Shown here piece by piece: positions 9,156-28,416 of a DNA stretch of 64,000 nucleotides. The DNA comes from Aminobacterium colombiense DSM 12261 (GTDB taxonomy: Bacteria; Synergistota; Synergistia; Synergistales; Aminobacteriaceae). Location of the stretch: contig NC_014011.1 in the NCBI RefSeq assembly GCF_000025885.1, positions 1,302,001 to 1,366,000 of the forward strand. Direction: 5' to 3'. Numbering within the stretch: position 1 is the stretch's first letter; each line of letters opens with the position of its first letter. The notes below the pieces were generated by a model, which was not told where the DNA came from, made no database searches, and saw only the letters and a program-made list of their open reading frames with translations. The translations under genes and the position numbers were made by a program.

Positions 9156-10452
9156 ATAACATTAAAACGCTATCGTCTTCCCCTTCTTCATCAAAAGTGT
9201 AATTGGGATTTTTAACAATACGCACCTTGTCTATGCGCTGGCCCATTACTTTTACAACCTCAAAGCGAAGAGGCCCCCACTCAAGGGCAGCCCCAACTGC
9301 TGGCAAAGTCTTGAACTGTTCAAAAAGCCACCCGCTCAACGTACTGGATTCACTTTCAGGGGCGTAGGGCATCCGGAGAAACTTTTCAAAGAGTTCTTCC
9401 AGGTAGGCATCACCGCTCGCTAGATAGATATTTTCTTCTACCTGGGTATAATATTCCTTGAAATCGTCGTGTTCATCGTATATTTCGCCTACTAGCTCCT
9501 CTAAAATATCTTCAAGGGTAATAATCCCGGATGTACCGCCATATTCATCTAAAACAATGGCAAGGTGGGCTTTATTTCTTTGCAACATCTTTAATGCGTC
9601 CATTAAGGTGGCGCTGCCTGCTATCAGCAGTGGCGGAGCCATAATAGAACGAAGGTCAACATGCTTGTCATTGATATAATGGTTCAGAAAATCTTTTTCG
9701 TTGAGAATGCCAATGATATTGTCGAAGGTTCCTTCATATATTGGAACACGGGAATAATGATTCTTCAGCATAAGATTTTTTACATTCTCGAGGGGCTCAT
9801 TCACATTTAACGCAAACAGGTCCACTCGTGGAGTCTGTATTTCACAGACTTCTATCTCAGAGAAATTCACTGCGTTTCCTATAATATCCTTTTCGACCTC
9901 AGGCAACTCTCCTTCTTCTCCCATGGTTTCTACAATACTTAACAATTCATCATGTGTGACGCTGGGCAAAGCGGCTGTTCTGCTTTTGCCCCGCAAGTAA
10001 TTAGACAGATTTGTTGTAAGCCATGTAAGGGGAGAAAGAAGAAAAACAAAAAAATACACCCAGGCAGCAGCACCGAGAGCAAAGTTTTCAGCCTTATCCT
10101 TCACAAAAGCCTTGGGAAGGATTTCTCCAAAAAGGATGATGAGAACAGTCATAAGAAGTGTTGCATAAACCACACCGATAGGTCCCATCAAAACAGAAAG
10201 GATGCCTGCCGCCGCAGAGGTCATGACAATATCAACGATATTCCCGCCAATGAGGATCGCAGAAATCGTTTTATTGAAATCCTTTGCAAGGTCGAGTGCC
10301 TTTTTAGAGCCTTTACGTCCCTCTTCTACAAACCGTTTAAGACGTATTTTATTAACACTGGAATAAGCTGTCTCGCTTGCTGAAAAAAAAGCTGAAAGGA
10401 TGAACATAAAAATAAAAAATAGAGCGAACAGTATTACGGAACTCTCAGCCAC
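9154..10452 (-). CDS. CNNM/CorC (HlyC) family membrane protein with CBS pair
   Basis: A 432-residue protein in the standard order: DUF21/CNNM transmembrane domain (residues about 1-190, with the SASETAYSSVN segment near 25), two CBS domains (about 210-330, including EYGGTSGIITLEDILEELVGEI), and the C-terminal CorC_HlyC domain (about 345-425). Family members take part in Mg2+/Co2+ efflux or magnesium homeostasis; the old hemolysin label is historical. It is a single gene with no evident operon partner; together with the partial CorA at the left edge the region carries two divalent-cation genes. Confidence 0.88.
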   Translation of the reverse strand: MAESSVILFALFFIFMFILSAFFSASETAYSSVNKIRLKRFVEEGRKGSKKALDLAKDFNKTISAILIGGNIVDIVMTSAAAGILSVLMGPIGVVYATLLMTVLIILFGEILPKAFVKDKAENFALGAAAWVYFFVFLLSPLTWLTTNLSNYLRGKSRTAALPSVTHDELLSIVETMGEEGELPEVEKDIIGNAVNFSEIEVCEIQTPRVDLFALNVNEPLENVKNLMLKNHYSRVPIYEGTFDNIIGILNEKDFLNHYINDKHVDLRSIMAPPLLIAGSATLMDALKMLQRNKAHLAIVLDEYGGTSGIITLEDILEELVGEIYDEHDDFKEYYTQVEENIYLASGDAYLEELFEKFLRMPYAPESESSTLSGWLFEQFKTLPAVGAALEWGPLRFEVVKVMGQRIDKVRIVKNPNYTFDEEGEDDSVLML

Positions 10453-10551
10453 TAAAAAAAACCTCCATTTCAGGCTATAAGGCTATAATTTTACTATGAG
10501 TATAATAACAGAACATTAAGAGATAATGTTACTTATTGTTCTATTTGTTGA

Positions 10552-10810
10552 TTAGTGACTTCGCCACCTGCGGAGCCCTAGTAAAAACTCAGAAAGCATT
10601 TGCCGTGCTTCTTCTTTATCGAAACCCTCAGCCACCATGAAGAGGATACACTTTTCTATCATCTCGTCTATAGTTATACCCGGCTGCTCAAAAGCCCCGT
10701 TTCTGTAACAATAAATACAATAGTTATGGGAAAGGCTTCCGTTTCTTTCCGAACCTAGAAGAGAGGGGGTCTTCAAGAGGCATTCCACAACTTTGACAAA
10801 CCTTTTTCAT
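10552..10810 (-). pseudogene. Zn_ribbon_2-type (DUF, PF12674-like) protein, interrupted by a one-base frameshift
   Basis: Starting at ATG 10810 behind a strong AAAGGAGGTG site, the frame gives MKKVCQSCGMPLEDP and then runs off-frame to an early stop. From about 10769 the next frame continues the same protein: LLGSERNGSLSHNYCIYCYRNG and then EMIEKC to the stop at 10552. Joined, the two parts give an 85-residue protein with the CQSCGMP and CxYCY pairs of the small zinc-ribbon family. The break falls in a run of five G at 10765-10769; removing one base restores the whole protein. It may be a true inactivation or a homopolymer sequencing error. Confidence 0.75.
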
Positions 10811-11150
10811 GGCACCACCTCCTTTAATAAATAAAAATTATGCTTTAATATGAGCAATAATAGTAGCACAACTTATGTATTGCCACTCTTGCCTTTTTAT
10901 TTTTTCCCCTATTTTTGTATTTGTAAAACTCCCTCTAACTCCATTTCCTGCGGCAAGGGTAGAAAGCATTATCAAGTTTTTAGGCGTACCCTACGATTAA
11001 CCTCCTGTAGAAGGCCTTCGGTTGAATTTTTCTACATTTCACGTATAATAGTTTTTTGTATATAATGAAATAGATATTTACATTCAATTGCGTTGTATCC
11101 ACTAAACAGATTTCTTTTCTTTGTATTTCCCAGAAAGGATGTAGAAAATA
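10811..11150. other. Intergenic region between zinc-ribbon gene and MATE gene
   Basis: There is no gene I can support in these 340 AT-rich bases. The segment carries the zinc-ribbon ribosome site at its left end and a sigma70-like promoter for the MATE gene at 11038-11066. A short palindrome GAAGGCCTTC lies near 11010. Confidence 0.5.
11038..11066 (+). promoter_or_regulatory. Candidate sigma70 promoter for the MATE gene
   Basis: A consensus -10 box TATAAT (11061-11066) is preceded at 17 bases by TTCACG (11038-11043), a fair -35. It lies about 85 bases upstream of the MATE start. Confidence 0.45.
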
Positions 11151-12572
11151 TTGAAATACACATTCGATCCGCTGCGAGGGAGTATTTTCTCGGTATTCCT
11201 ATACTATTCCTCGCTGACGGTCATAGGAATGCTGGCGGTTTCCTCGGCCAGCGCCATCGATGCCGCTTTTCTAGGGAACATGGATGGCGAGGTTGCCTTG
11301 GCTACAGTAACGCTGACACTCCCCTTTGTCATTTTTGTGGGAGGAGTGGCGTTTATGATGGGTATTGGAGGATCAGTTTCCTGCGGCAAATATCTCGGAG
11401 CCGGCGATGTTCAGACGGCATCGGCCATTTTTACAAAAACTCTTCTAGCGACCCTCCTTTTCGCGGTGGGGGTCTGTTTCACAGCAACAATAGGAGTTGA
11501 CCTATTAGTTGTACTCCTGGGTGCAAGCCCTGCCATTGCTCCATCTGTGCGCACTTATACATCAATTTTAACCCTATTTATCCCTTTTTCAGTTACAGGA
11601 ATTTGTCTTTCATATTTCGTAAGAGTTGACGGCAGACCGCTTCTTGCTGCTGTTGCTATGACAGTAGGTGCCATAGTAAATATTTCCCTTGATTGGCTTT
11701 TTGTCGTAAAACTACATTGGGGTATACAGGGAGCTGCTTTCGCAACAGGATTCTCCCAAATTACCCTTCTCTGCATGCTGTTCTCCCATTTTCTACAAAA
11801 AAAGGGGAAATTGCGCTTTAATATGCGAGGAGGCTCATGGAAAGAAATTATTCGAGCTGCCTATAACGGGTTCTCTGAATTTGCCAACGAAATTTCAGCT
11901 GGATTTCTTACGTTCCTCTTTAACAGAATCATGATCAGGCGTTTAGGGGTAGCCGGTGTTGCAGCTTATACAATTGTCAACTACATTCTCTACCTTGGCT
12001 CTATGGCATGTTATGGTATCAGCGATGCCATACAGCCAATTATCAGTAAAAATTTTGGTGCTGGAAAAGCTAAGCGAATCAAGGGGTTCTTATGGATAGC
12101 AGGCGGAACAGTTACTTTTTTAGGTATCCTTATTGTGAGCATTCTACTTCTGATGCCAAACTCAATGATTAAGCTTTTTACAAACTCAGAAGCAGAAATA
12201 ACAATATGCATTGCCCGTGATTTTATAGCTCACTTCTGGCCAGCTTTTTTGCTTATTGGAATCAATATCGTCTTTTCTTCATATTTTACTGCTATGCAAA
12301 AGCCGGTACACTCAGCATTTATCGCCATATCGAGAAGTCTCGTGGCACCAGCAACGCTGCTATATATACTTCCTCTTTTCCTTGGCAACAAGGGGATATA
12401 TATGGCTGTTCCATTAGCGGAGCTCGCTACATTCATCCTTGCACTCGCACTCTTTATGCCGAACTCTCCATTAAAACTGATACGCTCTGACCAAATCTAC
12501 AAAAAACTAGGAGAAAAAAGAGAGCTTTTCCCACAAAAGGGTGTTCCCACTTCAGAATCACGCTTCTCATAA
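11151..12572 (+). CDS. MATE-family multidrug/cation efflux transporter
   Basis: A 473-residue protein of twelve predicted membrane helices with two MATE repeats; the N-half carries GxxxxxxDAAFLGNMDGEVALATVTL and the second half LGVAGVAAYTIVNYI and the SDAIQPIISKNFGAGK block typical of the NorM/DinF superfamily. Members expel cationic compounds against Na+ or H+. The start appears to be TTG at 11151, about ten bases after AGAAAGGATG, because no ATG fits the family's N-terminus. Its last six bases overlap the end of convergent lrgB. No regulator is adjacent. Confidence 0.85.
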   Translation: MKYTFDPLRGSIFSVFLYYSSLTVIGMLAVSSASAIDAAFLGNMDGEVALATVTLTLPFVIFVGGVAFMMGIGGSVSCGKYLGAGDVQTASAIFTKTLLATLLFAVGVCFTATIGVDLLVVLLGASPAIAPSVRTYTSILTLFIPFSVTGICLSYFVRVDGRPLLAAVAMTVGAIVNISLDWLFVVKLHWGIQGAAFATGFSQITLLCMLFSHFLQKKGKLRFNMRGGSWKEIIRAAYNGFSEFANEISAGFLTFLFNRIMIRRLGVAGVAAYTIVNYILYLGSMACYGISDAIQPIISKNFGAGKAKRIKGFLWIAGGTVTFLGILIVSILLLMPNSMIKLFTNSEAEITICIARDFIAHFWPAFLLIGINIVFSSYFTAMQKPVHSAFIAISRSLVAPATLLYILPLFLGNKGIYMAVPLAELATFILALALFMPNSPLKLIRSDQIYKKLGEKRELFPQKGVPTSESRFS

Positions 12573-13283
12573 CATTTTAAAGAATGGAATAACCCACAAG
12601 AGAAGAGGCACCACAATTACAGTAACAACGCCACAAAGGCCTGTAGCAAGGCTGCTGAAGGCACCCTCTGTCTCTCCCATCTCGAAAGCCCGGCTCGTCC
12701 CTATAGCATGAGAACTAGACCCAATGGCCAGACCTCGAGCAATCGGATGATGAATCCCAGCTATTTTACAAAGGATGGGCGCCAGAATAGCACCAGTTAC
12801 TCCCGTAATAATAATAGAAAACACTGTAACAGGAACTATACCCTCAATAATGCGGGCTATTTCGATTCCTATAGGGGCTGTCACAGATTTAGGAACCAGA
12901 GACAGAAAAAAATCATTGTTAAGATTTAAAAAACAGCATAAAAACCAAATACAGACAAAAGAAGTGAGAACCCCTGCAACTATAGAAAGCATTATCGGTT
13001 TCAGAATAGCTTTTAATCGTGACAATTCACGGTATATGGGCACAGCTAAGAGAACAGTAATCGGACCAAGCAACATAGCGATAATATCTCCACCGCGCCT
13101 ATATTCTTCATAGCTGTAGTCAGTAAATGTCAGAGTGATACCGATCACTAGAGATGAAAATACTACTGGAGGCAAGAGGACAAATCTTGCTTTGTCACGA
13201 ATCCAGCACCCCAAAAGATAAGTGCCAATGGTAAGAACTATGGCAAAAAGAGGGGTTTGAAATATTTCTTTAAAGACTGCCAC
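12567..13283 (-). CDS. lrgB: LrgB/CidB-family membrane protein
   Basis: A 238-residue membrane protein with the family's two signatures: PKSVTAPIGIEIA (about residues 130-142) and SSSHAIGTSRA (about 187-197). LrgB works with LrgA; the pair is linked to cell-lysis control in some bacteria and to pyruvate uptake or overflow-metabolite transport in others. It follows lrgA with a 14-base overlap. Its 3' end overlaps the convergent MATE gene by 6 bases. Confidence 0.9.
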   Translation of the reverse strand: MAVFKEIFQTPLFAIVLTIGTYLLGCWIRDKARFVLLPPVVFSSLVIGITLTFTDYSYEEYRRGGDIIAMLLGPITVLLAVPIYRELSRLKAILKPIMLSIVAGVLTSFVCIWFLCCFLNLNNDFFLSLVPKSVTAPIGIEIARIIEGIVPVTVFSIIITGVTGAILAPILCKIAGIHHPIARGLAIGSSSHAIGTSRAFEMGETEGAFSSLATGLCGVVTVIVVPLLLWVIPFFKML

Positions 13284-13638
13284 TGGACTTTTCCTCTTTT
13301 CTTCGAAGAAGGTACTGTGCTGTTATGCCCGTTGCTACCATAACAAGAGACGTAGAAAGAACAATTATGAAAATTAGCTGTGGAACAACATCAAGTATTT
13401 TTTCTTTGGCCGCTACCACACCGACAACAACAGGCACAAAGAAAAACGCGAGATTTCCCAGGCAAAAGTCCGCCAGGTCCTTTAACGATTCAACAGAAAT
13501 AACGTTACAGTACATAAGGGCAAATAAAAGTATCATCCCTATAACACTTCCAGGAATGGGAATACCTGATAAGACCTGAATACTTTGACCAATAAAGAAA
13601 ATGACGCATACAATGAACATTTGCCGTAAAAGATTCAA
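13270..13638 (-). CDS. lrgA: LrgA/CidA-family holin-like protein
   Basis: A 122-residue protein with four membrane segments and the LrgA block IPIPGSVIGMILLFALM near residues 27-43, followed by the DFCLGNLAFFFVPVVVGV segment. It is the small partner of LrgB, encoded directly downstream with overlap. No LytTR-type regulator accompanies the pair here, so control is not evident. In a pyruvate-fermenting anaerobe the pyruvate-transport role is attractive, but that is inference. Confidence 0.88.
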   Translation of the reverse strand: MNLLRQMFIVCVIFFIGQSIQVLSGIPIPGSVIGMILLFALMYCNVISVESLKDLADFCLGNLAFFFVPVVVGVVAAKEKILDVVPQLIFIIVLSTSLVMVATGITAQYLLRRKEEKSSGSL

Positions 13639-13723: not shown

Positions 13724-13762
13724 TAAAAATGTTTCCGGGAAGAAAAGTCTCCCCGGAAACAT
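13724..13762 (-). terminator. Rho-independent terminator of the tct/RidA operon
   Basis: The arms ATGTTTCCGGG (13729-13739) and CCCGGAAACAT (13752-13762) are exact complements. Read on the minus strand the stem is followed by TTTTTAT. It lies 44 bases after the stop of the triple-RidA gene and closes that operon. Confidence 0.8.
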
Positions 13763-13805: not shown

Positions 13806-15113
13806 TTACGGTGCGTAAACCCAGAGATCAGTCAAAATTGTGCACCCGGGAATTGGCAACGGAGCGGGAACTTCAACTGCTGAAAAAGGCAGGGCCTGCC
13901 CTGGTAAACAATTTTGCCAACTCTGGTAAGCAGGGTAGAATTCGTTAAGATCAGTGTGGAACTGTTGGATGCGGACCACATTTTTCAAAGAAGTTCCTGC
14001 TGCCTGGCAAATCTTTTCTGCGTTGTTCAGAATATGCTCCATCTGACACTGAGCAGAAGAACCAAAATAGGGCTGTCTGGGATCAATCTCGCATCCTGGA
14101 GCAAGACCATTCTCATCAGCGGCCATAAGACCAGTAATAAAGAGAAGATCCCCTGCTCTGATCGCTACTGTCTGATCTTCATATCCTGTAAAGACATCGT
14201 GCTTGATGATCTCTTTTTTGGTTTTTCCGCCATCAGCAAGAGCCAAAACTGTAATTTCTATTGCCGCTTCAGAAATTGCGAAGCCTGGAGTAGCTGTAGG
14301 AATAAGTGTTGTTACCGGCGGGTTTTCAGGGAAATACTTATTCCAAACTTCTCTAAAGGCGGGGAAATCTTCTATGTCTCGCATATATACCTGAGCCTTA
14401 ACGATATTGCCAAGGGATGAACCGCTTGCTCGCAATGCTGGCTCTAGTCTGTGCTTAATAATATACTCAGTCTCTAGTTTTATCTGCTTGCCCCGCCAGA
14501 GATAACCAGGTACAGGACGTGCTTCCGGCGGTATGCACTCATTTCTTCCTTTACCACTTGTCGCCATCATTCCCGCTACAAAAATAAAGTCACCTGCACG
14601 CACTGCCGGAGCATATCCGGAAGAGGCCGGCGCATCTATCTCAGGTGGGTTAATAGCTTCAACAGAGAAATCCTCGCTGGGAACAACCGCGATCATCTCT
14701 ACCTCTATATCTGCATTATTAATAAGAAGGCCCTTTTGCAAAATAGAAGTGCTTGGAGGAATATAATCACCAAAGGCCGCTTTCCTCCCAACATGATATG
14801 GGTCTACTGCTTTCCAGGTAGTATAGTACTGATCTACTCGTACTACGTTAGACATGCCGCTTCCCGCACTAGAAAGCAAGGATTTGAGTCTGTTGAAAAT
14901 GAAATCCGTTTCCTTTTCATTTTTAGGTTTGCCTGACCTCGGAAGACGAGGGTTGTGTACCTCCGGAGAAAGTCCCTGTTTAAAATCAGTAGCCATATGC
15001 CCCGTCGCAAAAATCCAGTTACCGGCTTTTATTGCCTGGGCATACTGTATTTTTCCTTTAGCAATTTCGACAGGGGACAAAAATTCCAATGTTTTCTTCT
15101 TTGTGTCATCCAT
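13806..15113 (-). CDS. Three tandem RidA/YjgF domains in one chain
   Basis: A 435-residue protein made of three successive RidA (YjgF/YER057c/UK114) domains at about 17-150, 165-295 and 305-432. Each repeat has the family's opening strand pattern (QAIKAGNWIFATGHMA; PAVRAGDFIFVAGMMA; VAIRAGDLLFITGLMA) and the later GxxxxNVVR/NIVK segment. Classical RidA is a homotrimer of 130-residue chains that hydrolyses reactive enamines/imines, using an Arg in a PAR motif. At that place these repeats read PPST, PPVT and LPFS, so the catalytic Arg is missing in all three. The start is ATG 15113 behind GAGAAAGGAG. It is the last gene of the tct operon, 64 bases after tctA. Confidence 0.85.
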   Translation of the reverse strand: MDDTKKKTLEFLSPVEIAKGKIQYAQAIKAGNWIFATGHMATDFKQGLSPEVHNPRLPRSGKPKNEKETDFIFNRLKSLLSSAGSGMSNVVRVDQYYTTWKAVDPYHVGRKAAFGDYIPPSTSILQKGLLINNADIEVEMIAVVPSEDFSVEAINPPEIDAPASSGYAPAVRAGDFIFVAGMMATSGKGRNECIPPEARPVPGYLWRGKQIKLETEYIIKHRLEPALRASGSSLGNIVKAQVYMRDIEDFPAFREVWNKYFPENPPVTTLIPTATPGFAISEAAIEITVLALADGGKTKKEIIKHDVFTGYEDQTVAIRAGDLLFITGLMAADENGLAPGCEIDPRQPYFGSSAQCQMEHILNNAEKICQAAGTSLKNVVRIQQFHTDLNEFYPAYQSWQNCLPGQALPFSAVEVPAPLPIPGCTILTDLWVYAP

Positions 15114-15177: not shown

Positions 15178-16668
15178 TCAAGCTGCTTCACATCTCCTAC
15201 TTTTTATTTCTCGTCTCACACTAAATACTAAGAATAGGATAGCCGTTACTATAAAGGCCAGAGAATAAGGTCTGGTAAAAAATATCTTTATACCAGCATC
15301 TGGCAACATCAAAGATGCTCGTAGGCTTTTTTCCATAATTGGACCTAAAACCAGGGCCATTGCCACTGATAGAACAGGGAAACCGCCTTTTTCAAAAAAG
15401 TAACCAATGAGTCCGAAAACAATGGAGAGCCAGAAATAGTAAACGTGACCGTAGCTTATAGAGGGACCTACTATTGAGAGGACTAAAACAAAGGGGATCA
15501 TATATTTGTTATCCACCATCGTGGCTAGCTTGCCTATAAAATTAGCTAAAAACAACCCCATCAACAAAAGCAACACATTAGAGATCATCATCGCTAAAAA
15601 GATAACGTAAACCAAATCCAGCTGGTCACGAAACAGGCTTGGTCCTGGGACCAATCCGTGGATCAGCATAGCACCCATCATCATCAGGGTATTGGAATCA
15701 CCTGGAATTCCCAGTGTTAGCATGGGGACCAAGGCACCACCTGTTACAGAATTATTTGCGCTTTCGCTTGCCACAACACCTTCCTTAGAGCCTTTGCAAA
15801 ACTCCTCGGGATTTTTAGAAGCCCTTTTAGCCTCACCATAAGCCATAAAAGAAGCCATGGTTGCTCCCAGCCCCGGCAGTATGCCAATTACTGTTCCAAT
15901 AATACTGGATCTCAAAATATTAAACCACATTTTAGGCAAGTATTTGTACGCAGAGAAAACTCCTGTCACTTTATACCTTACAATATTAGAAGCAGCGGGG
16001 CGCCCCACCATTCTGAATGCTTCTGCAACACATAATAACCCTATAGTTGCCGGAACCTCAGGAATACCTATAGTGAGTTCTTGAATGCCGAAGGTAAATC
16101 TTGGGAAAGGACAGATTAAGTCTAGCCCAACTGTAGAAAGCAGCAAACCGAAGGACGCTGCAATAAAACCTTTGAGAACCGATTTACATGACATGGTAAA
16201 TACTACTATTATGGCGAGAAGACAAAGAGAAAAATACTCCGGTCCTGCAAAAAGAGTCGCAATCCGTGCCAACTTTAACGAAAGAAAAATGAGGATAATA
16301 CAACTGAAAATTCCACCAAAAGATGAACTATATGTAGCTAACCCTAATGCGGTGCCACCCTCGCCTTTTTGGGTCATAGGCCACCCTTCCATCGCTGTCA
16401 CGGCCGCTGTCGGTGTTCCTGGAATGTTCATTAGAATAGCCGTTATGGATCCTCCATATATGCTGCCGCAATAGATGCCGCACATCATAATGAAAGCCGA
16501 ATATTTTGACATCGTAAATGTTAATGGAATCAACAATCCGATAGCTATGGTCGAAGTAAGACCTGGAGCAGCACCGACCATTATGCCGGAAAACACCGAT
16601 CCAACAAGAAGTAAAATTTGGGTTGGTTGAAATATTATCCCTAAAGCCTGTGTGATCATGCCATCCAT
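15178..16668 (-). CDS. tctA: Tripartite tricarboxylate transporter, large membrane subunit TctA
   Basis: A 496-residue protein with about twelve membrane helices. The TctA signatures are present: GAAPGLTSTIAIGLL near residue 32, the NIPGTPTAAVTAMEGWPM block near residue 79, and GTVIGILPGLGATMASFMAYGEAK with LTLGIPGDSNTL further on. With TctB and the periplasmic TctC it forms an ion-driven carboxylate importer. Gene order on this strand is tctC-tctB-tctA. The substrate cannot be read from sequence; the neighbouring isocitrate-dehydrogenase-family and fumarylacetoacetase-family enzymes suggest a di- or tricarboxylate. Confidence 0.92.
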   Translation of the reverse strand: MDGMITQALGIIFQPTQILLLVGSVFSGIMVGAAPGLTSTIAIGLLIPLTFTMSKYSAFIMMCGIYCGSIYGGSITAILMNIPGTPTAAVTAMEGWPMTQKGEGGTALGLATYSSSFGGIFSCIILIFLSLKLARIATLFAGPEYFSLCLLAIIVVFTMSCKSVLKGFIAASFGLLLSTVGLDLICPFPRFTFGIQELTIGIPEVPATIGLLCVAEAFRMVGRPAASNIVRYKVTGVFSAYKYLPKMWFNILRSSIIGTVIGILPGLGATMASFMAYGEAKRASKNPEEFCKGSKEGVVASESANNSVTGGALVPMLTLGIPGDSNTLMMMGAMLIHGLVPGPSLFRDQLDLVYVIFLAMMISNVLLLLMGLFLANFIGKLATMVDNKYMIPFVLVLSIVGPSISYGHVYYFWLSIVFGLIGYFFEKGGFPVLSVAMALVLGPIMEKSLRASLMLPDAGIKIFFTRPYSLAFIVTAILFLVFSVRREIKSRRCEAA

Positions 16669-16691: not shown

Positions 16692-17204
16692 TCAATTCAA
16701 AAAATATTCCCAAAGCTTGCCTGTTGGAAGGTAAACCCCTACGACAATGGCGAAGATGTAATACAAGCCGCCACCTAAAGCGACGCTAAATAAAGTACTA
16801 TTTAACATCTTGCTGCCAAGCACTCTCATTATGAGGAATATGAAAATGATCGTTGAAGGCAAAAAACCTATGGTGATAATAAGAGCCGGATATATTAAGC
16901 AAAGTAAAAAAGCGTAGGCTGTATTACGAATTAGAATCGATTCTTCATCTAAAGCATCTTTTTTCCAGACCACGTTTAGCTTGCTTAAGCTATCTAAAAC
17001 AAAAGAGAATCCGCCATTATTTTTGAAAAGTGATATCATAAGAAGGAGTGCCCCAGATCCTGTAAAAATGGAAAAAACTCTCGGAAAAAGAGCGAGACCG
17101 CCCGGATCTGCGTTAATAACAGGAAAACTAAATGTCTGCACAAAAAATATCAAACTTACAAAGAATGTTAAAAGAGCTACAGCCCACTCCGCGATAATAG
17201 TCAT
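16692..17204 (-). CDS. tctB: Tripartite tricarboxylate transporter, small membrane subunit TctB
   Basis: A 170-residue protein with four hydrophobic segments (about 8-28, 40-60, 90-120, 140-165), the size and shape of TctB. The FPRVF loop after the first pair of strands is typical. It lies between tctC and tctA with 23 bases to tctA, and supplies the small membrane part of the importer. Confidence 0.88.
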   Translation of the reverse strand: MTIIAEWAVALLTFFVSLIFFVQTFSFPVINADPGGLALFPRVFSIFTGSGALLLMISLFKNNGGFSFVLDSLSKLNVVWKKDALDEESILIRNTAYAFLLCLIYPALIITIGFLPSTIIFIFLIMRVLGSKMLNSTLFSVALGGGLYYIFAIVVGVYLPTGKLWEYFLN

Positions 17205-17338: not shown

Positions 17339-18319
17339 CTACTTGCTCTGCATCAAACTTAAAGCCTTGGTTATGTTTTCCTGCATCTTGTAGAGATGCT
17401 CTGTGTATGCCGCACTATCCTTTTTGTAAACAGACTGTCCCAGCTTTTCAAGCTCTGCTCTGAACTCAGGAATTTCCCATACCTTCTTGTTGGCTTCTTC
17501 AAGAATTTTTTTTACGTCCTCAGGAAGTCCCTTGGGACCGCCGATGCCGTAAGGAATTTCCCATACGATGTCATAACCAAGCTCTTTAAATGTCGGAACG
17601 TCAGGGAAGTCAGGGTGTCTTTCGCTGCCAAAATAACCGATAAACTTCAGTACACCATCATTAACGTAGGGAATGGCGGGTCTAATGTAAGAGCTGACTA
17701 CATCCACATGTCCACCCAGTATTGCAGCGTTCATTGCTGGAGAGCCGTCATGCGCTATGGCTTTGGCGCTGAATCCAGCCTGATCCATCCACAACAACAG
17801 CGGCTGATGGTGGCTTCCGCCTATATCAGAAACACCCATGGTCATCTTGTCAGGATTCTTCTTTGCTTCTTCAGCGAAGTCCATTGCTGTGTTCCAGTGT
17901 GATTTGCTCTGTGCCACTAGAACAGGAGACTGATAGCAGAAACTTCCTATAACATCGAAATCACTGATATCAAGGGGAGCGAGGTTCATTGGCTTATACT
18001 TGGGTAAATCTCCCTGGACAACAACGAGGGTATATCCATCAGGTCTGGCATTTTTGGCTGCGGCGTATCCTATACTTCCGCCACCACCAGTGATGTTTTC
18101 CACAACAATCTTCTGTCCAAGAATCTGCTCCAGATACTTCGTATAGATTCTGCTAGCAGTGTCTCCACCGCCCCCTGCTTGCCACATTACTATCCACTTT
18201 ATCGGCTTACTGGGATAATTTGACTTTCCAGCTGCCATGGCAGGTTCAACGCAAACAGCGAACATCAGGGAAAAAACAAACATAACCAATACAGCGACAA
18301 ACGCTCTTTTCTTTACCAT
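17339..18319 (-). CDS. tctC: Tripartite tricarboxylate transporter, periplasmic binding protein TctC (Bug family)
   Basis: A 326-residue secreted protein. A signal peptide covers residues 1-30 (basic MVKKR start, long hydrophobic stretch, cleavage near AMA-AG). The mature part opens with YPSKPIKWIVMWQAGGGGDTASR, the Bug/TctC pattern in which the glycine-rich loop clamps the ligand carboxylate, and later has the GYDIVWEIPYGIGGPKGLP segment. It captures a carboxylate and delivers it to TctAB. It precedes tctBA and is separated from them by a stem-loop, which would allow it to be made in excess. Confidence 0.92.
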   Translation of the reverse strand: MVKKRAFVAVLVMFVFSLMFAVCVEPAMAAGKSNYPSKPIKWIVMWQAGGGGDTASRIYTKYLEQILGQKIVVENITGGGGSIGYAAAKNARPDGYTLVVVQGDLPKYKPMNLAPLDISDFDVIGSFCYQSPVLVAQSKSHWNTAMDFAEEAKKNPDKMTMGVSDIGGSHHQPLLLWMDQAGFSAKAIAHDGSPAMNAAILGGHVDVVSSYIRPAIPYVNDGVLKFIGYFGSERHPDFPDVPTFKELGYDIVWEIPYGIGGPKGLPEDVKKILEEANKKVWEIPEFRAELEKLGQSVYKKDSAAYTEHLYKMQENITKALSLMQSK

Positions 18320-18405: not shown

Positions 18406-19326
18406 CTATCTTTTCTCCGCAACAATCTTGTTTTCAAGAACGCCAAGGACATCGCATTCTATACGGCAAACATCGCCGGGGAACATGTGGGTGGGATTCT
18501 TGCTGAACTTAGCAATTCCGCCAGGGGTTCCAGTTGCGACCACATCGCCTGGTTCAAGGGTGAAAACCTCAGAAAGGAAAGCTACAAGTTTGGGAATTCC
18601 ATAGAGCAAATTCTTAGTATTGGAACTCTGCAGCTGCTTGTCATTTACCCAGAGTTTAAAGTTCAGATCCATAGGATCAGCTACTTCATCTGGTGTGACA
18701 AGGGTAGGCCCCATGGGGGCGAAAGTATCAAAGGTTTTTCCTCTTAAGACCTGTTTGTCGAGGGTGGTAATATCACTGGCCGAAACGTCATTGAAGATGG
18801 TGTATCCTGCAATATAGTCATAAGCATCTTCCTCAGATACATAACGAGCAGGTTTGCCGACCACAAAGGCCACTTCAACTTCATAGCCAAGCTCATCTGT
18901 GGCATCTGGTTTAATAATGCAATCTTCTGGACCACACACACTGTTCTGATACTTTGAGAAAATTCTTGGCGCTGCAGGTGTGGGAACACCTGTCTCTTCG
19001 ATAAAATCTACATAGTTGTGGGAAAGGCAAATTATTTTTCCTGGATCAGTGATAGGTGCCATAAGCTTTACTTCAGAACGCTCAAAAACCGCCTTATCAT
19101 CTATGGTGCCCTCAAGCACTTTACGGGCAAGATCCATACCCCTCTCTTCTCTCGTGAGAAAACGCTTCATATCTGACGGCAAAAGGGCGTCCGCTACTAC
19201 CTGGGGAGTGGGATCTCCTTCTTTGCACAGCTGTTTGGCGTAGGCAAGATTAAGATCGATAACTTTGTCTCCCACAAGCGCACCTAGTCTGTTGGTATTA
19301 CATTTCTGGAAAGTTACTAAACGCAT
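18406..19326 (-). CDS. Fumarylacetoacetate hydrolase (FAH) family enzyme
   Basis: A 306-residue protein with the FAH fold and metal site: ELGYEVEVAFVVG supplies the two Glu ligands and FNDVSASD the Asp; GKTFDTFAPMGP and VATGTPGGIA complete the active site. FAH-family enzymes hydrolyse, decarboxylate or isomerise beta-diketo or 2-oxo acids such as fumarylpyruvate, oxaloacetate and 2-oxo-hept-diene-dioates. Start ATG 19326 lies 7 bases after AGGAGG; an in-frame TTG at 19332 is less suited. It stands in the tct operon next to an isocitrate-dehydrogenase-family gene, so its substrate is probably a derivative of the imported carboxylate. Confidence 0.85.
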   Translation of the reverse strand: MRLVTFQKCNTNRLGALVGDKVIDLNLAYAKQLCKEGDPTPQVVADALLPSDMKRFLTREERGMDLARKVLEGTIDDKAVFERSEVKLMAPITDPGKIICLSHNYVDFIEETGVPTPAAPRIFSKYQNSVCGPEDCIIKPDATDELGYEVEVAFVVGKPARYVSEEDAYDYIAGYTIFNDVSASDITTLDKQVLRGKTFDTFAPMGPTLVTPDEVADPMDLNFKLWVNDKQLQSSNTKNLLYGIPKLVAFLSEVFTLEPGDVVATGTPGGIAKFSKNPTHMFPGDVCRIECDVLGVLENKIVAEKR

Positions 19327-19372
19327 GCTCAAACCTCCTAATCGGTATCTTAAATGTCGGCTAGATCACAGA

Positions 19373-20368
19373 TTACAATGCGTGGATTATGGCCTGTGTC
19401 ATCTCTGATGTTTTCGCAGTTCCACCAAGATCTCGGGTTACAACCTTGCCTTCCCTTATTACGGTGGCCACTGCATTCTCCACTCGGTCTGCTCCTTCGC
19501 TATAACCAAGATGGCGAAGCATGAGACAAGCAGAAAGAATCATAGCGGTTGGATTGATTCTGTCTTGACCGGCATATTTGGGAACACTCCCATGCACAGA
19601 CTCAAAGACAGCGATATCATCTCCGTAGTTCACTCCTGGCCCCACACCAAGGCCACCCACAAGACCTGCTGTAAGGTCGGAAACCATGTCGCCGTAGACA
19701 TTGGGCATAACCATGACATCAAATGCTTCCGGCATTAGTACCAATCTCATACACAGAGCATCAATGATTACCTCGTCGAATTCGATTTGAGGATAATCTT
19801 TCGCAACTTCTCTGGCTGTCTTCAGAAAAAGACCATCAGTAAGTTTTAAGATATTGGGTTTTACTGAAGCCGTTACTTTTTTTCGCCCATTGGCGATGGC
19901 ATACTCAAAAGCCTTACGAACTACCCGCTCCGAGCCTTTTTTTGTTATGAATTTCAGGGCTACAGCTACGTCGTCACTAAGCATCTGTTCTTGCCCGGCA
20001 TAGGTGTCTTCCGTGCTTTCACGTACAACGATAAGGTCGAGATCTTTAAAGTTGGAACGTACGCCTTCGTAGTACTTGGCGTGGCGGATGTTGGCGTAAA
20101 GATCCAACTTGACTCTTAACGTTACGTTGGGGCTTCTAAATCCCTCCCCCACAATGTTTGTAAGGGGACCCTTAAGTGCAACCTTGTTGCGACGAATAGA
20201 CTCCAGGGCTTTTTCGGGAACCGGTTCGCCGTATTCCGGCACTGCTACCTGTCCGGCTGCAACTTCTTCCCACTCTATCCCCAGCTTGAGGGCATCAACG
20301 ACTTGGCGGGCTGCATTAACTACTTCTGGGCCTATTCCATCCCCTGGTATCAAGGTAATACGCGTCAT
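19373..20368 (-). CDS. NAD-dependent isocitrate/homoisocitrate-type dehydrogenase family enzyme
   Basis: A 331-residue beta-decarboxylating dehydrogenase. The substrate loop reads SPNVTLRVKLDLYANIR, the form of NAD-isocitrate dehydrogenases rather than isopropylmalate dehydrogenase. The family signature NVYGDMVSDLTAGLVGGLGV is near residue 220 and the cofactor segment HGSVPKYAGQDRINPTA follows. It oxidises a 2-hydroxy-3-carboxy acid to a 2-oxoacid and CO2. Placement beside a tricarboxylate importer fits isocitrate or a methyl- or homo-isocitrate as substrate. The length is typical of the short NAD-type enzymes. Confidence 0.85.
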   Translation of the reverse strand: MTRITLIPGDGIGPEVVNAARQVVDALKLGIEWEEVAAGQVAVPEYGEPVPEKALESIRRNKVALKGPLTNIVGEGFRSPNVTLRVKLDLYANIRHAKYYEGVRSNFKDLDLIVVRESTEDTYAGQEQMLSDDVAVALKFITKKGSERVVRKAFEYAIANGRKKVTASVKPNILKLTDGLFLKTAREVAKDYPQIEFDEVIIDALCMRLVLMPEAFDVMVMPNVYGDMVSDLTAGLVGGLGVGPGVNYGDDIAVFESVHGSVPKYAGQDRINPTAMILSACLMLRHLGYSEGADRVENAVATVIREGKVVTRDLGGTAKTSEMTQAIIHAL

Positions 20369-20402: not shown

Positions 20403-20426
20403 TTTGCACACATCGTTGTGCGCAAA
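20403..20426. promoter_or_regulatory. Imperfect palindrome between the GntR and isocitrate-dehydrogenase-family genes
   Basis: TTTGCACACA (20403-20412) and TGTGCGCAAA (20417-20426) are complementary except at one position, with a 4-base spacer. It could be an internal operator or a small intercistronic hairpin. Confidence 0.35.
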
Positions 20427-20445: not shown

Positions 20446-21114
20446 TTATTTATTTTTCTTGCCGATCTGATGTGTAACGCGATCCATGGCTTCAAAGGCA
20501 TGCTTGTTTGCCGCTTCAAACGCTCCGACTGCATCCTTATTGAGCAATGCATCATAAATAGCCTTATGGCCATCTATCACATCTCCCCATCGATCAATGT
20601 TGCCAAGGGAAAGTTCCGCATATCTCCTGAGATTTTGTGAAATGCTGTTGTAGTATTGAGATAAAAGGCTGTTATCTATTGACTCTATAATCAGGCTATG
20701 GAAGGCCGTATTGGCAGAAACCATCCCCTCAAAGTCACCTTCTTCGATGTAACAACGGGATTCTTCGATGTTATTGGCTAGAGTCGCAAAATCCTCTTCA
20801 GTGAGCTTCTGAGCTGCTGCATAACAACCGTAGCCATCCAGCATGGCTTTGAGCTGATAATGTTCATGAACATTTTTAAGGCGTATTACAGAAACCCTTG
20901 CGCCACGATAGGGTAAAAGTTCAACAAACCCCTCATGGGCCAACATTCTCAACGCTTCTCTGATTGGTGACCTGCTTACCCCAAACATATCTGCCAAAAA
21001 CGATTCTGTAAGGCGCTGGCCCTCCTCTATTTCGCCATCAAGGATCTTCTCTCGAGTAACATCTGTAATGCGGCGTGCAATTTGCAAAATCTCAGGAATC
21101 TGCTGTGTCCCCAT
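20446..21114 (-). CDS. GntR-family transcriptional regulator, FCD subfamily (tct operon)
   Basis: A 222-residue DNA-binding protein. The N-terminal winged helix is recognisable (ESFLADMFGVSRSPIREALRMLAHEGFVE, about 37-65), followed by an all-helical FCD ligand domain with the NTAFHSLIIES metal/ligand helix. FCD-type GntR proteins usually repress carboxylate catabolic genes until the substrate or an intermediate binds. Start ATG 21114 is preceded by AAGGAG; an in-frame ATG at 21132 has no site. It lies inside the operon it probably controls, between the alcohol dehydrogenase and isocitrate-dehydrogenase-family genes. Confidence 0.9.
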   Translation of the reverse strand: MGTQQIPEILQIARRITDVTREKILDGEIEEGQRLTESFLADMFGVSRSPIREALRMLAHEGFVELLPYRGARVSVIRLKNVHEHYQLKAMLDGYGCYAAAQKLTEEDFATLANNIEESRCYIEEGDFEGMVSANTAFHSLIIESIDNSLLSQYYNSISQNLRRYAELSLGNIDRWGDVIDGHKAIYDALLNKDAVGAFEAANKHAFEAMDRVTHQIGKKNK

Positions 21115-21145
21115 TTTATTACTCCTTATCATTTAAGTTTTTTAC

Positions 21146-22833: not shown

Positions 22834-24093
22834 CTACAACACTCCAATCATAGGGACAGTAAGACTCCCCACAGGCATAACCACACTGCTAAAAGAAAAT
22901 CCATGTTTGTTTTTTACGAATGAAAGAGCTTCGTCGAGGTCATTGACTTTTTGAGCAAATAACATGGCTGTTTGCTGCTGATCAAAATTGGAAATCAGCA
23001 AAATCTCCTTATTCAAAGCAACGCGGGCAATACCAAACGCCTTGTGACCGCCTAAAACAAATTTTTGACGTATTTTCTCTATTACTTCCATTGGCGTACG
23101 AGACATCCTCAGAAAATTTTCAAAGGTTTCTTCTCCGAACCCCATGGGACATTCCGCTAACAAAACGATCGTTCCGCCCTTTTTTGTGATGCGGTCTGCA
23201 TGGTCCAGAGCCTTTTGTGCCTGGTACATGTTTATGTCCCTGGGGAAACCCCCGCAAGAAACAAATGTCACATCTACTTCCTCTGGCAATGGAATCTCGT
23301 ACATTTCCGCAGAAATTTTTACGCCTTCAAGCCATGCTTTTTCAAAGTCTCCCGCAACTACTTCAACTATTTCTTTTTGGCTGTTTGGAACTACATTAAC
23401 AATAAAATCCAGACCTGCCAAACGAGCCCCTTCCACCATTTCAATGCTAAGGGGGTTTGTTTCCAACGGCGGCATGGAATCGAGCAGTTCCACCATTCTA
23501 GAATGATTTAATTCTATCGTTTCCCTTGAAGCCACTCCTGGCAGAATGGATTTTCTCCCTCCTGAAAAACCTGCAAAATAATGGGGAAGAATTACGCCAA
23601 CTGAAATAAGAAGATCTGCTTCAAAAACCTCGCTATTGATGAAAATAGGAGTGCCGTAAGACGTCGCTCCAAGGTTTTTTACATTTTCGCTGTCACAATC
23701 ATGAGAAATAAAACGGTACCTTTCAACAAGGTTTTCTCCGAATATTTGTTTGTTCTGCTCAACGGTGTGCGGTTCGTGTATCCCCGTAGCTACCAAAAAA
23801 GTGACCTGGTCTTCTTTCACACCTTCTCTGTGGAGTGTTTCAAGAATAGGGGGAAGAAGTATGTCATTTGGAGTGGGCCGGGTAAGATCATTTACCACAA
23901 TAACAACCTTTTCAGGCTTTTTGTTTCGCACAATATGGGAAAGAGGCAGGGTTCCCAAAGGAGCCTTAAGTCTCTCACGCACTAATTGAATTGGAGATTT
24001 TACGCCTGGCCGTTCATTGGCGGTAATGATGTTAGCTTGAACAAGTTCCTCCATGTTTAAACACAGAGAACCCTTTCCATATTTTAATAACAA
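22834..24093 (-). CDS. larA: Nickel-pincer-nucleotide dependent racemase, LarA family
   Basis: About 419 residues. The LarA residues are all visible: the DLTRP loop, ATGIHEPHT (active-site His), and PHYFAGFSGGRKS followed by NHSRM. The spacing His-10-Lys and Lys-16-His equals that of His174, Lys184 and His200 in lactate racemase of Lactiplantibacillus plantarum, so the covalently bound nickel pincer cofactor is expected. The family racemises or epimerises various 2-hydroxyacids. The start is either TTG 24093, 8 bases after AAGGGGGG and giving the family-like LLKYGKGSL opening, or GTG 24141. It is the last gene of the TRAP operon. No larB, larC or larE lies in this window. Confidence 0.85.
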   Translation of the reverse strand: MLLKYGKGSLCLNMEELVQANIITANERPGVKSPIQLVRERLKAPLGTLPLSHIVRNKKPEKVVIVVNDLTRPTPNDILLPPILETLHREGVKEDQVTFLVATGIHEPHTVEQNKQIFGENLVERYRFISHDCDSENVKNLGATSYGTPIFINSEVFEADLLISVGVILPHYFAGFSGGRKSILPGVASRETIELNHSRMVELLDSMPPLETNPLSIEMVEGARLAGLDFIVNVVPNSQKEIVEVVAGDFEKAWLEGVKISAEMYEIPLPEEVDVTFVSCGGFPRDINMYQAQKALDHADRITKKGGTIVLLAECPMGFGEETFENFLRMSRTPMEVIEKIRQKFVLGGHKAFGIARVALNKEILLISNFDQQQTAMLFAQKVNDLDEALSFVKNKHGFSFSSVVMPVGSLTVPMIGVL

Positions 24094-24144
24094 GTCTTTC
24101 GTCCCCCCTTCTTTATATTTTCCAGATTTCTTTTCTAACACCCT

Positions 24145-25419
24145 TTAAAAAAGAAGGCTCGGTAAAAAGGTAGTAATCGCCGGAACATAGGCCAAAATAA
24201 AAAGCCCTAAAACTAAAACAAGTAAAAATGGAATGACTTTTACTGTAATCTGACCTATAGAAATATCACTAATCGCACAAGTGGCAAAAAGAGAGATGCC
24301 AACAGGCGGAGTTGCCATTCCAATAGCCAGCGAAATAACTGTAACGACACCGAATTGAACCATATCGAAACCCAGCTGAGAAGCAATAGGTGCAAATATA
24401 GGAACCACAAGGAGTATAATTGCTGCCGTTTCCATAAATGTTCCGAGGATAAGATAGATTATGAGCATTAACGCATAAATTACTATGGGGTTAGTAGAGA
24501 AACCAAGAATAGCCGATGAAAAAAGCTGTGGAACTTGTTTAATCGTCATTAGCCACCCAAAAGGGTTGGCTGCGGCAATCAGAATCATGATCATTGCAGA
24601 ATTGAGAGCGGCTTTATAAAAAATAGGCATAATATCTTTCCATGTCAGCTCTTTGTATATGAAGCAACTGACAAATAGGCCATAAACAACTGCTATAGCT
24701 GCGGATTCAGTTGGAGTAAAGATACCCGTCATAATGCCGCCAAGAATAATAACAGGCATTAAAAGCCCCCAGATGGCTTCTACAAAAGAGATTTTTCTTT
24801 CGGTCCATGATTTCTTTTCTTCCGTAGGGTACCCTAGCCTTTTTGACTGAATTCTGTTCATACCTAATAAAAGAAGGGAAAGAAAGATTCCTGGAATAAT
24901 TCCTCCTATTAAAAGCTGTCCTACTGAAACATTCGCCACTGTGCCAAAAACGACCATAGTGATACTTGGAGGAATAATAACTCCAAGACAAGCAGCTGCC
25001 GCCACTACCGCTGAAGCGTAAGATTTATCATATCCCCGCTTCTCCATTTCCGGAATCGTCAAGCTACCCACAGCAGCGGCGGTAGCTGGCGTAGACCCGG
25101 AAATAGCAGCAAAAAAAGTACAGGCCACGATGGAAACGGCTGCCAATCCTCCCGTAATGTGTCCAACCAAAGTGCTAGCGAGAGATACTATGCGCTTTGA
25201 CACGCCACCTCGCTCCATTATGGCGCCAGCTAACATAAAGAAAGGGATGGCTAACAAGGGGAAGGAATTCGCTCCGGCTACCATTCTCTGGGGAATAAGC
25301 ACTATGGGCATACTTCCAGAAGCTATGAGACTCGCCAAGGATGCTATCCCCAAAGAAAAACCTATTGGGACATTGGCAATGAAACAAACAACAAGCGAAA
25401 TAATTAAAGCAGATAACAA
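24145..25419 (-). CDS. dctM: TRAP transporter large membrane subunit DctM (first system)
   Basis: A 424-residue protein with about twelve membrane spans and DctM motifs: FSLGIASLASL near the start, AIPFFMLAGAIMERGGVSKRIV (about 56-77), GSTPATAAAVGSLTIPEMEKRGYD (about 109-132) and FTPTESAAIAVVYGL (about 227-241). It is the transport channel that moves substrate from the DctP binding protein using a Na+ or H+ gradient. The start is TTG 25419, spaced well from AGGGAGGGG. dctQ lies 15 bases upstream. Confidence 0.93.
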   Translation of the reverse strand: MLSALIISLVVCFIANVPIGFSLGIASLASLIASGSMPIVLIPQRMVAGANSFPLLAIPFFMLAGAIMERGGVSKRIVSLASTLVGHITGGLAAVSIVACTFFAAISGSTPATAAAVGSLTIPEMEKRGYDKSYASAVVAAAACLGVIIPPSITMVVFGTVANVSVGQLLIGGIIPGIFLSLLLLGMNRIQSKRLGYPTEEKKSWTERKISFVEAIWGLLMPVIILGGIMTGIFTPTESAAIAVVYGLFVSCFIYKELTWKDIMPIFYKAALNSAMIMILIAAANPFGWLMTIKQVPQLFSSAILGFSTNPIVIYALMLIIYLILGTFMETAAIILLVVPIFAPIASQLGFDMVQFGVVTVISLAIGMATPPVGISLFATCAISDISIGQITVKVIPFLLVLVLGLFILAYVPAITTFLPSLLF

Positions 25420-25434
25420 GGTTTTCCCCTCCCT

Positions 25435-25917
25435 CTACTCGACAATTTGACTGAAGTTTTTGCGCATTTGTTTTAGACAGTAATAAATATTTAAACAACC
25501 TGCAACAGGAATGGAAAGATACACCCAGAACATAGGCAGTCCCAGAGCAGGGGATGGCTGATTCTTCGTTGTTAGAGATATTTTCCAGCCGTAGTAAATG
25601 AGGTAGCCGGAAAAGACTATAAGGGCCGCATATACAAGAATCTCTACACTTTTCTGTATTTTAGAGGGAAGAAGGTTAACTACTACATCTATTCCTATAT
25701 GAATTTTTTCTTCTATACCAATAGCTGCTGCTATGAAAGTACACCATATAAACAAAAACCGGACTAATTCTTCTGCCCATGATGGAGCATTATTAAAAAC
25801 ATAACGCATAACAACTTGGTAAAAGGTCAAAAAGGTGATGCCAATCATAAGAATGGCGAGAAACCATTTCACTAGGTAACTCATGCTAAAAGGGAGCCTT
25901 TGTTCTCTATGAGACAT
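25435..25917 (-). CDS. dctQ: TRAP transporter small membrane subunit DctQ (first system)
   Basis: About 160 residues with four membrane helices and the DctQ pattern VVMRYVFNNAPSWAEELVRFLFIWCTFIAAA (helix 2 region) followed by IHIGIDVVV. It docks the DctP binding protein to the DctM channel. ATG 25917 follows GAGGTGG at good distance; an in-frame ATG further upstream adds 15 unlikely residues. The TRAP order on this strand is dctP-dctQ-dctM. Confidence 0.9.
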   Translation of the reverse strand: MSHREQRLPFSMSYLVKWFLAILMIGITFLTFYQVVMRYVFNNAPSWAEELVRFLFIWCTFIAAAIGIEEKIHIGIDVVVNLLPSKIQKSVEILVYAALIVFSGYLIYYGWKISLTTKNQPSPALGLPMFWVYLSIPVAGCLNIYYCLKQMRKNFSQIVE

Positions 25918-26001
25918 GGGAAACCACCTCGTAATATTCAGGAACATTGTTTTGACAACCATTTTAGATACAGTAAATAAAAGCGCGGTTAATTAGAAAT
26001 C

Positions 26002-26031
26002 AGGGGACTGACACAGTAACGACAGCCCCCT
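26002..26031 (-). terminator. Intercistronic hairpin after the first dctP
   Basis: AGGGGACTG (26002-26010) pairs with CAGCCCCCT (26023-26031) apart from one position. It lies 14 bases after the dctP stop and before dctQ, without a T-run, similar in place to the hairpins after tctC and the second dctP. Confidence 0.5.
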
Positions 26032-26045
26032 ATAAGTGAAATGTT

Positions 26046-27071: not shown

Positions 27072-27135
27072 TACTTCCTCCACCTCCAAGAAATAGTAAA
27101 AACGTAGTCCTTTGTACCGTGCTATTACCGTGCTA

Positions 27136-28386: not shown

Positions 28387-28416
28387 AGTCTTAGCTCCTC
28401 CTCATAAAAAGTATGA

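Follow-up and report, generated by a model that had tools for sequence, protein, structure and literature searches.

The window, a stretch of 64,000 nucleotides of the Aminobacterium colombiense DSM 12261 genome, carries on its minus strand an operon that ends with a gene for a triple RidA-fold protein. We refer to this protein as triRid, a label coined in this analysis. In the direction of transcription the order is GntR/FCD regulator, isocitrate dehydrogenase (IDH)-type dehydrogenase, fumarylacetoacetate-hydrolase (FAA)-type protein, TctC, TctB, TctA and triRid. The genes and the associated features are as follows.

20446..21132, minus strand, GntR/FCD regulator (PF00392 and PF07729)
19373..20368, minus strand, isocitrate/isopropylmalate-type dehydrogenase (PF00180, E 1e-101)
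18406..19332, minus strand, fumarylacetoacetate-hydrolase family protein (PF01557, E 2.5e-60)
17339..18319, minus strand, TctC, periplasmic receptor (PF03401, E 6e-38)
16692..17204, minus strand, TctB (PF07331, E 4e-11)
15178..16668, minus strand, TctA, large membrane subunit of the tripartite tricarboxylate transporter (PF01970, E 7e-137)
13806..15113, minus strand, triRid, 435 aa, ATG start (open reading frame and translation)
13729..13762, minus strand, terminator-like hairpin of 15 pairs with a T tail, just after triRid

Judging from its position, the GntR/FCD gene is the probable regulator of the operon. A palindrome at 20403-20426, between the GntR and dehydrogenase genes, scored as terminator-like and is a possible operator of this regulator. 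No NCBIfam equivalog scored above cut-off for the dehydrogenase or the FAA-type protein, and the Pfam scan revealed no PLP enzyme among the operon genes scanned. In the region, 14 terminator-like sites were found (10.1 expected), and the hairpin after triRid has the longest stem. Past this hairpin, at 12567-13638, lie genes for LrgA and LrgB, which probably form a separate unit. The next gene group, at 22834-29388, encodes a lactate-racemase family protein (PF09861), a TRAP large subunit (PF06808), an HMGL-like protein and a D-2-hydroxyacid dehydrogenase, and constitutes another cluster for the uptake and use of organic acids. The genome as a whole (1,980,592 bases, one contig) yielded two TctC matches.

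Pfam found PF01042 in three stretches of triRid, with a whole-protein E value of 1.8e-38, and at E values up to 0.01 no domain other than PF01042 was detected. The three domains were delimited as follows.

14667..15080, minus strand, domain 1, residues about 12-149 (family alignment and domain tree)
14223..14666, minus strand, domain 2, residues about 150-297, the most RidA-like, with the best Pfam stretch at 160-292
13809..14222, minus strand, domain 3, residues about 298-435 (domain tree)

The arginine site and the triRid family

A sequence-only reading of this gene had described three RidA repeats with PPST, PPVT and LPFS in place of the motif that holds the catalytic arginine of RidA. The Pfam hits, the translation and the alignment bore this out: the motifs occupy residues 119-122, 265-268 and 408-411, and S121, T268 and F410 align with R105 of RidA. 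The family alignment comprised 64 distinct near-full-length proteins, i.e., the window protein and 63 from Betaproteobacteria; proteins shorter than 380 aa were excluded, and repeated sequences were counted once. None of the 64 members, and hence none of the 192 domains, has an arginine in the R105 columns. Eleven members have an arginine somewhere within 265-271, none of them in columns 266-270. The site is occupied by S or T in domain 1 (Ser in 55/64), by T, L or V in domain 2, and by F, L, Y or I in domain 3. As controls served the 31 single RidAs that were readable from loci of Synergistota, the phylum of the window genome; the proteins of L002, L006 and L031 were excluded because they gave no phmmer hit. 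Arginine was present at the site in 30 of these 31 proteins and serine in one. The claim that the arginine is missing from all three domains was thus upheld by a difference that exceeds chance, and at the level of sequence its loss in every aligned triRid member is strongly supported. triRid scored 94.4 against the Rid hydrolase model TIGR00004, under the cut-off of 106.25, and three relatives scored 62-86.

Members of the family were located in two ways. Six exact 8-residue patterns, searched against 84,980 species genomes, led to three loci in Betaproteobacteria with proteins 41-44% identical to triRid (full-length ones in L040 and L041, an incomplete one in L042). Profile searches around the genome of L040 (G185) then detected triRid in at least 15 of 399 genomes of its order, which we take to be Burkholderiales for all the betaproteobacterial triRid genomes, in 23 of 74 genomes of its family, and in at least one of 398 genomes spread over its phylum, the match being G185 itself; these three search sets overlap, and those of the order and the phylum were scored for up to four candidates per genome. 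Some genomes hold four or more copies. Among 185 genomes of Synergistota, only the window genome gave a full-length match. With regard to a possible horizontal transfer, the GC content of the triRid gene is 45.5%, compared with 43.0% for the window. In plasmid records, no single place covered 80% of the window triRid, and a search with the L040 protein at 1e-10 gave no match. The 32 members compared are 35-49% identical to the window triRid, and the reading frames of the family are intact. None of the open-licence papers listed in literature searches describes a family of triple Rids that lack the Arg, and triRid apparently represents a small, undescribed one.

In order to trace the three domains, a tree was built from 86 domains: 45 from 15 triRids, nine from three 3x-RidAs (proteins with three RidA domains that are discussed below), 31 from single RidAs, and E. 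coli RidA. Domains 1, 2 and 3 of triRid each formed a single clade (support 100/99, 100/99 and 100/98), indicating that the triplication predates the spread of the family. The position of the window protein is less clear. In a full-length tree of 29 proteins it sits on a long branch and weakly joins the L059/L071 clade (90/76), and in the 86-domain tree its single domains join different neighbours. L064 was excluded from both the R105-site comparison and the full-length tree.

A second, distantly related Rid type of 461 aa was observed in the same betaproteobacterial clusters (L078:12058-13443, L151:11797-13182 and L152:4030-5415; 69-79 bits to triRid), in the order amidohydrolase, 461-aa protein, single Rid, TctC, triRid. 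Inspected by eye, it comprises three domains with APPSTAS, PPATL or PAGTV, and PPAIS, PPAVT or PPAIT at the sites, and is therefore Arg-less too; in the one protein scanned with Pfam, two PF01042 stretches passed. Since this type occupies the same clusters, triRid may be part of a larger group of triple Rids without the Arg.

Predicted fold and conserved pocket residues

The sequence-only reading had proposed that the chain folds as a single-chain trimer with three unlike interfaces. AlphaFold models of two members support the first part of this proposal. The model of the window triRid reached a pLDDT of 72 and a pTM of 0.81; the five models ranged from 72 to 34, two of them falling to 34-39, and pLDDT was under 50 for residues 41-64, 98-103 and 124-134, which lie near the presumed pocket. 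The L040 protein was modelled with a pLDDT of 76.8 and a pTM of 0.83; the confidence of both models is thus medium. For the window model, chorismatases came first in both Foldseek and VIA-align (Z 24.6, rmsd 3.1, 287 aligned residues), with moderate Foldseek TM-scores of 0.39-0.49 by query and 0.50-0.62 by target, and single RidAs ranked after them with Z up to 18. The L040 model, compared with VIA-align only, also matched chorismatase best (Z 25.7, rmsd 3.1 over 287 residues), followed by FBXO22 (Z 15.9, rmsd 5.0), single RidAs (about 12) and cyanuric acid hydrolases (about 11). The solved structure closest to the whole chain is thus chorismatase, and the predictions support a single-chain pseudo-trimer of that kind. 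Fold and family of triRid are well supported, though a fold in common does not by itself reveal a function.

Considering that chorismatase was the top fold match, we asked whether triRid is itself a chorismatase, and rejected this assignment. The catalytic Glu of the chorismatase Hyg5 is E334 (PMC7170507, partial text). In a register derived from the end points of the alignment, this residue falls on L427 of triRid, a column occupied in the 64 members by M (35), Q (13), I (9), T (6) and L (1). Moreover, a profile of 17 triRid members matched 61 PDB sequences at E values up to 10, and no chorismatase was present among the best 60 of these, a result that would still be compatible with distant common descent.

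The second part of the proposal, the unlike interfaces, gained support from residues conserved in only one of the domains at RidA pocket positions. The stretches concerned are the following.

14745..14840, minus strand, domain 1 signature RVDQYY...YH..R...PPSTS, residues 92-123 (alignment of 64)
14256..14258, minus strand, E286 in domain 2, equivalent to RidA Glu120, 64/64 (alignment to RidA)
13827..13829, minus strand, D429 in domain 3, RidA position 122, D in 62/64 and E in 2/64

In domain 1, R92, D94, Q95, H107 and R110 are invariant in the 63 members that have a residue there, and P120 and S123 are found in 64/64. H107 takes the place of RidA N88 and S123 that of C107, R110 lies three residues past the N88 equivalent, and the Glu120 place varies (E in 36/64). 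Domain 2 keeps K239, Q241, Y243, W257 and E286 in all 64 proteins. Domain 3 keeps R381, P409 and W431 in 64/64, and the Glu is absent from its Glu120 place. Altogether, 21 residues are fully invariant across the family, which makes triRid unlike a decaying pseudoenzyme.

Because each domain forms one clade and has its own invariant pocket residues, the three interfaces appear to have diverged and not to be equivalent, with the Arg side of domain 1 rebuilt. We infer that the domain 1 signature corresponds, in rebuilt form, to the Arg side of the pocket in RidA. In TdcF, N88 orients R105. R110 might bring a guanidinium into the domain 1 pocket, as a candidate for the arginine from elsewhere in the chain that the sequence-only reading had allowed for. 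By position, E286 is the best candidate for the acid partner of this pocket.

Linkage to Tct genes

In 48 of 58 betaproteobacterial loci, TctC is the immediate neighbour of triRid, compared with 146 of 630 (23%) other non-TctC genes in these loci (Fisher p 1.5e-19). The same tendency was observed when only TctC on the same strand was counted (38/58 versus 106/630) and under another gene clustering (24/33 triRids versus 77/377 other genes). The 58 copies are those loci whose surroundings were read, a subset of the profile matches; L106 was dropped since its triRid gene was not called, and the 461-aa proteins of L078, L151 and L152 were counted among the other genes. Genes in these loci were called with a simple codon score and not taken from annotation. 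TctC is very common in these bacteria, with at least 81-84 matches per genome in 15 betaproteobacterial genomes, and the loci are related to each other, so the adjacency is weaker evidence than the p value suggests. Of the ten copies that lack an adjacent TctC, seven share a housekeeping neighbourhood (five from the L059/L071 clade), and the other three are L040, L173 and L176.

The L040 locus has a dehydrogenase homolog, TctA and TctC in common with the window, and the window dehydrogenase clusters only with that of L040. In L040, triRid is preceded by genes for an acyl-CoA dehydrogenase and a protein of the MmgE/PrpD type; the 144-aa gene before TctA is presumably TctB, and the ligase after triRid presumably an AMP ligase. 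FAA-type genes were found near triRid in only three other loci (L157, L159 and L166). These two operon genes thus do not accompany triRid in general. Genes for an amidohydrolase, an amidase, CaiB or a dehydrogenase are found close to several of the triRid copies, and some clusters include OCD genes. In 16 loci, triRid has a single Rid no more than three genes away, with the motif HAR(S/T)AVG kept in 16/16; the one that was scanned belongs to PF14588.

The sequence-only reading had suggested that triRid might bind the acid imported by TctABC. A link to TctABC is supported by the operon in the window and by the recurrent TctC adjacency elsewhere. As for tctA in other genomes, the L040 locus has TctA. 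In the phylum of the window, a search at E 1e-100 detected TctA in 53 of 185 genomes; of the 10 TctA surroundings read, some of which were cut by contig ends, none contains a triRid. In L137, from a genome of the same genus as the window (G031), the gene of an ordinary Arg-bearing RidA immediately precedes TctC, and TctA follows later on the same strand (about 9825-13329). Rid-Tct linkage is thus not limited to triRid. No report of a Rid-Tct link was found among the open-licence papers listed in a literature search. Since the Arg-less family has the Tct receptor and transporter as genomic partner, the search for the substrate is narrowed to carboxylates and the function becomes testable.

Possible function and comparison with known systems

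From the sequence comparisons, triRid is likely not an imine hydrolase, and it has probably been repurposed as an enzyme rather than kept as a RidA. The more specific reading that we prefer, with a little less than even confidence, is a single-chain enzyme of the RidA fold in which one pocket is rebuilt and which acts on a carboxylate tied to Tct uptake. Fusion of the RidA trimer into one chain would have left the three subunit-interface pockets free to diverge. One of them, that on the Arg side of domain 1, would have been rebuilt, with H107 in the place of N88, R110, and S121-T122-S123 in the place of R105-C107, and would use an acid from another domain, for which E286 is the best placed; the remaining two pockets may be structural or ligand-binding. 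The reaction might be that of a tautomerase, hydrolase or lyase on an enol, keto or imine carboxylate. In E. coli TdcF, 2-ketobutyrate is bound in the RidA pocket and was read by the authors as the enol form (PMC1884159, partial text). The substrate may be a carboxylate imported by TctABC, or one derived from it via the dehydrogenase and the FAA-type enzyme of the operon; both substrate and reaction are inferred.

The main rival is a non-catalytic role, in which the pseudo-trimer would be a ligand binder or sensor with a regulatory task, its ligand being the imported acid or a metabolite. We regard this as rather unlikely. It would fit the rank of FBXO22, a FIST protein, directly after chorismatase for the L040 model, the proposal of FIST as a sensory domain (PMC11185555, partial text), the linkage to receptor genes, and the regulator gene in the window operon. 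However, the polar invariants H107, R110, S123, E286, K239 and Q241 at or near RidA pocket positions look catalytic, Pfam detected no second domain in the chain, and several copies lie near the genes for amidohydrolase, amidase, CaiB or dehydrogenase. A purely structural or decaying relic without function, for which the loss of all three catalytic arginines could be cited, is highly improbable given the 21 invariant residues in 64 proteins, the 35-49% identity of the 32 members compared to the window protein and the intact frames.

Two further possibilities would keep triRid closer to enzymes already described. It could be an imine/enamine deaminase after all, if R110 binds the carboxylate in place of Arg105 or if the site tolerates Ser. 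R110 is indeed present in 63/63 members and three residues past the N88 equivalent, an Arg was seen by eye at the matching place in the distant 461-aa proteins, and some clusters contain genes for OCD, amidase and amidohydrolase. Moreover, Ser replaces Arg in about 10% of RidA-subfamily proteins (PMC4433059, cited here from partial text), and domain 1 has Ser in 55/64. The same source reports, though, that exchange of Arg for Ala in plant and Salmonella RidA almost abolishes imine hydrolysis, and that the Arg-less Rid4-7, whose functions it calls mysterious, are thought not to hydrolyse imines. In addition, the scanned genes of the window operon include no PLP enzyme, and in some loci the Arg-bearing single Rid within three genes of triRid (16/16 such genes) could already do this job. 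A deaminase is therefore improbable. We consider it less probable still that triRid is a chorismatase-like hydrolase of an enol ether carboxylate, e.g., chorismate: chorismatase is the top whole-chain fold match of both models, but it is missing from the best 60 of the 61 PDB profile matches, the position of the Hyg5 Glu is the variable column 427 (M, Q, I, T or L), and the surroundings in the window are catabolic, not aromatic-biosynthetic.

Returning to the repurposed enzyme, we put forward its widest form more tentatively than the reading above. triRid would be a new enzyme family that arose when the RidA homotrimer was converted into a single chain independently of 3x-RidA, chorismatase, cyanuric acid hydrolase and FIST, a process in which three arginines were lost and one asymmetric active site was built; it would catalyse a step in the breakdown of Tct-imported acids and belong to the wider Arg-less triple-Rid set. 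triRid is a natural experiment on the passage from a symmetric homotrimer, in which the three active sites are identical, to an asymmetric single chain.

Several known systems can be compared with triRid in fold. Chorismatase (PDB 5a3k, 5ag3 and 4bps, the first two of which we take to be Hyg5) shares the single-chain YjgF-type fold, with Z 24.6-25.7 in comparisons with predicted models only, but is 12-15% identical to triRid and has another gene context. The cyanuric acid hydrolase AtzD, with the Toblerone fold, consists of three YjgF-type units in tandem and matched the L040 model at a Z of about 11 and an rmsd of about 5; the AtzD family has a Pfam model of its own, whereas PF01042 is the sole Pfam family reported for triRid. 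According to Peat et al. 2013 (PMC3758960, partial text), AtzD is made up of concatenated YjgF units, and its central barrel holds the active site, with Ser-Lys dyads and a metal site. The FIST domain has three structural repeats with pseudo-threefold symmetry and a fold like that of chorismatases and cyanuric acid hydrolases; FBXO22 differs in its attached F-box, its 7% identity, and the lack of an obvious ligand pocket in FIST, as stated in the excerpted text of PMC11185555.

Within the Rid proteins, Rid4-Rid7 have the RidA fold and lack the catalytic Arg, as triRid does, but each consists of one domain. In Rid4 and Rid7 the Arg is replaced by Trp (PMC4433059, partial text), a residue that no triRid domain shows at this site. 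Compared with the Rid4-Rid7 pattern, in which the Arg is replaced and Glu120 retained, triRid has Glu in 64/64 in domain 2, varies in domain 1 (E in 36) and has lost it in domain 3. Three joined RidA domains are not a novelty in themselves and we rejected them as such: 3x-RidA, three RidA domains in one chain and presumably a covalent trimer, is in print, with EF_0115 of Enterococcus faecalis as a named example (Niehaus et al. 2015, PMC4433059, partial text). It also occurs in another genome of the window's phylum (G139; L038:3647-4972), as an Arg-bearing protein with very similar repeats that is 68% identical to an Enterococcus faecalis protein. The domain tree and the Arg-site residues led us to reject the assignment of triRid to 3x-RidA. 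The three 3x-RidAs compared, one each from E. faecalis, Photobacterium and G139, have Arg in eight of nine domains and Lys in one, as opposed to 0/192 in triRid; their nine domains form a clade of their own (100/100), apart from domains 1, 2 and 3 of triRid; and the E. faecalis and G139 proteins reach 289-290 bits with TIGR00004 (cut-off 106). Arg-keeping 3x-RidA and Arg-less triRid therefore provide matched controls within one phylum.
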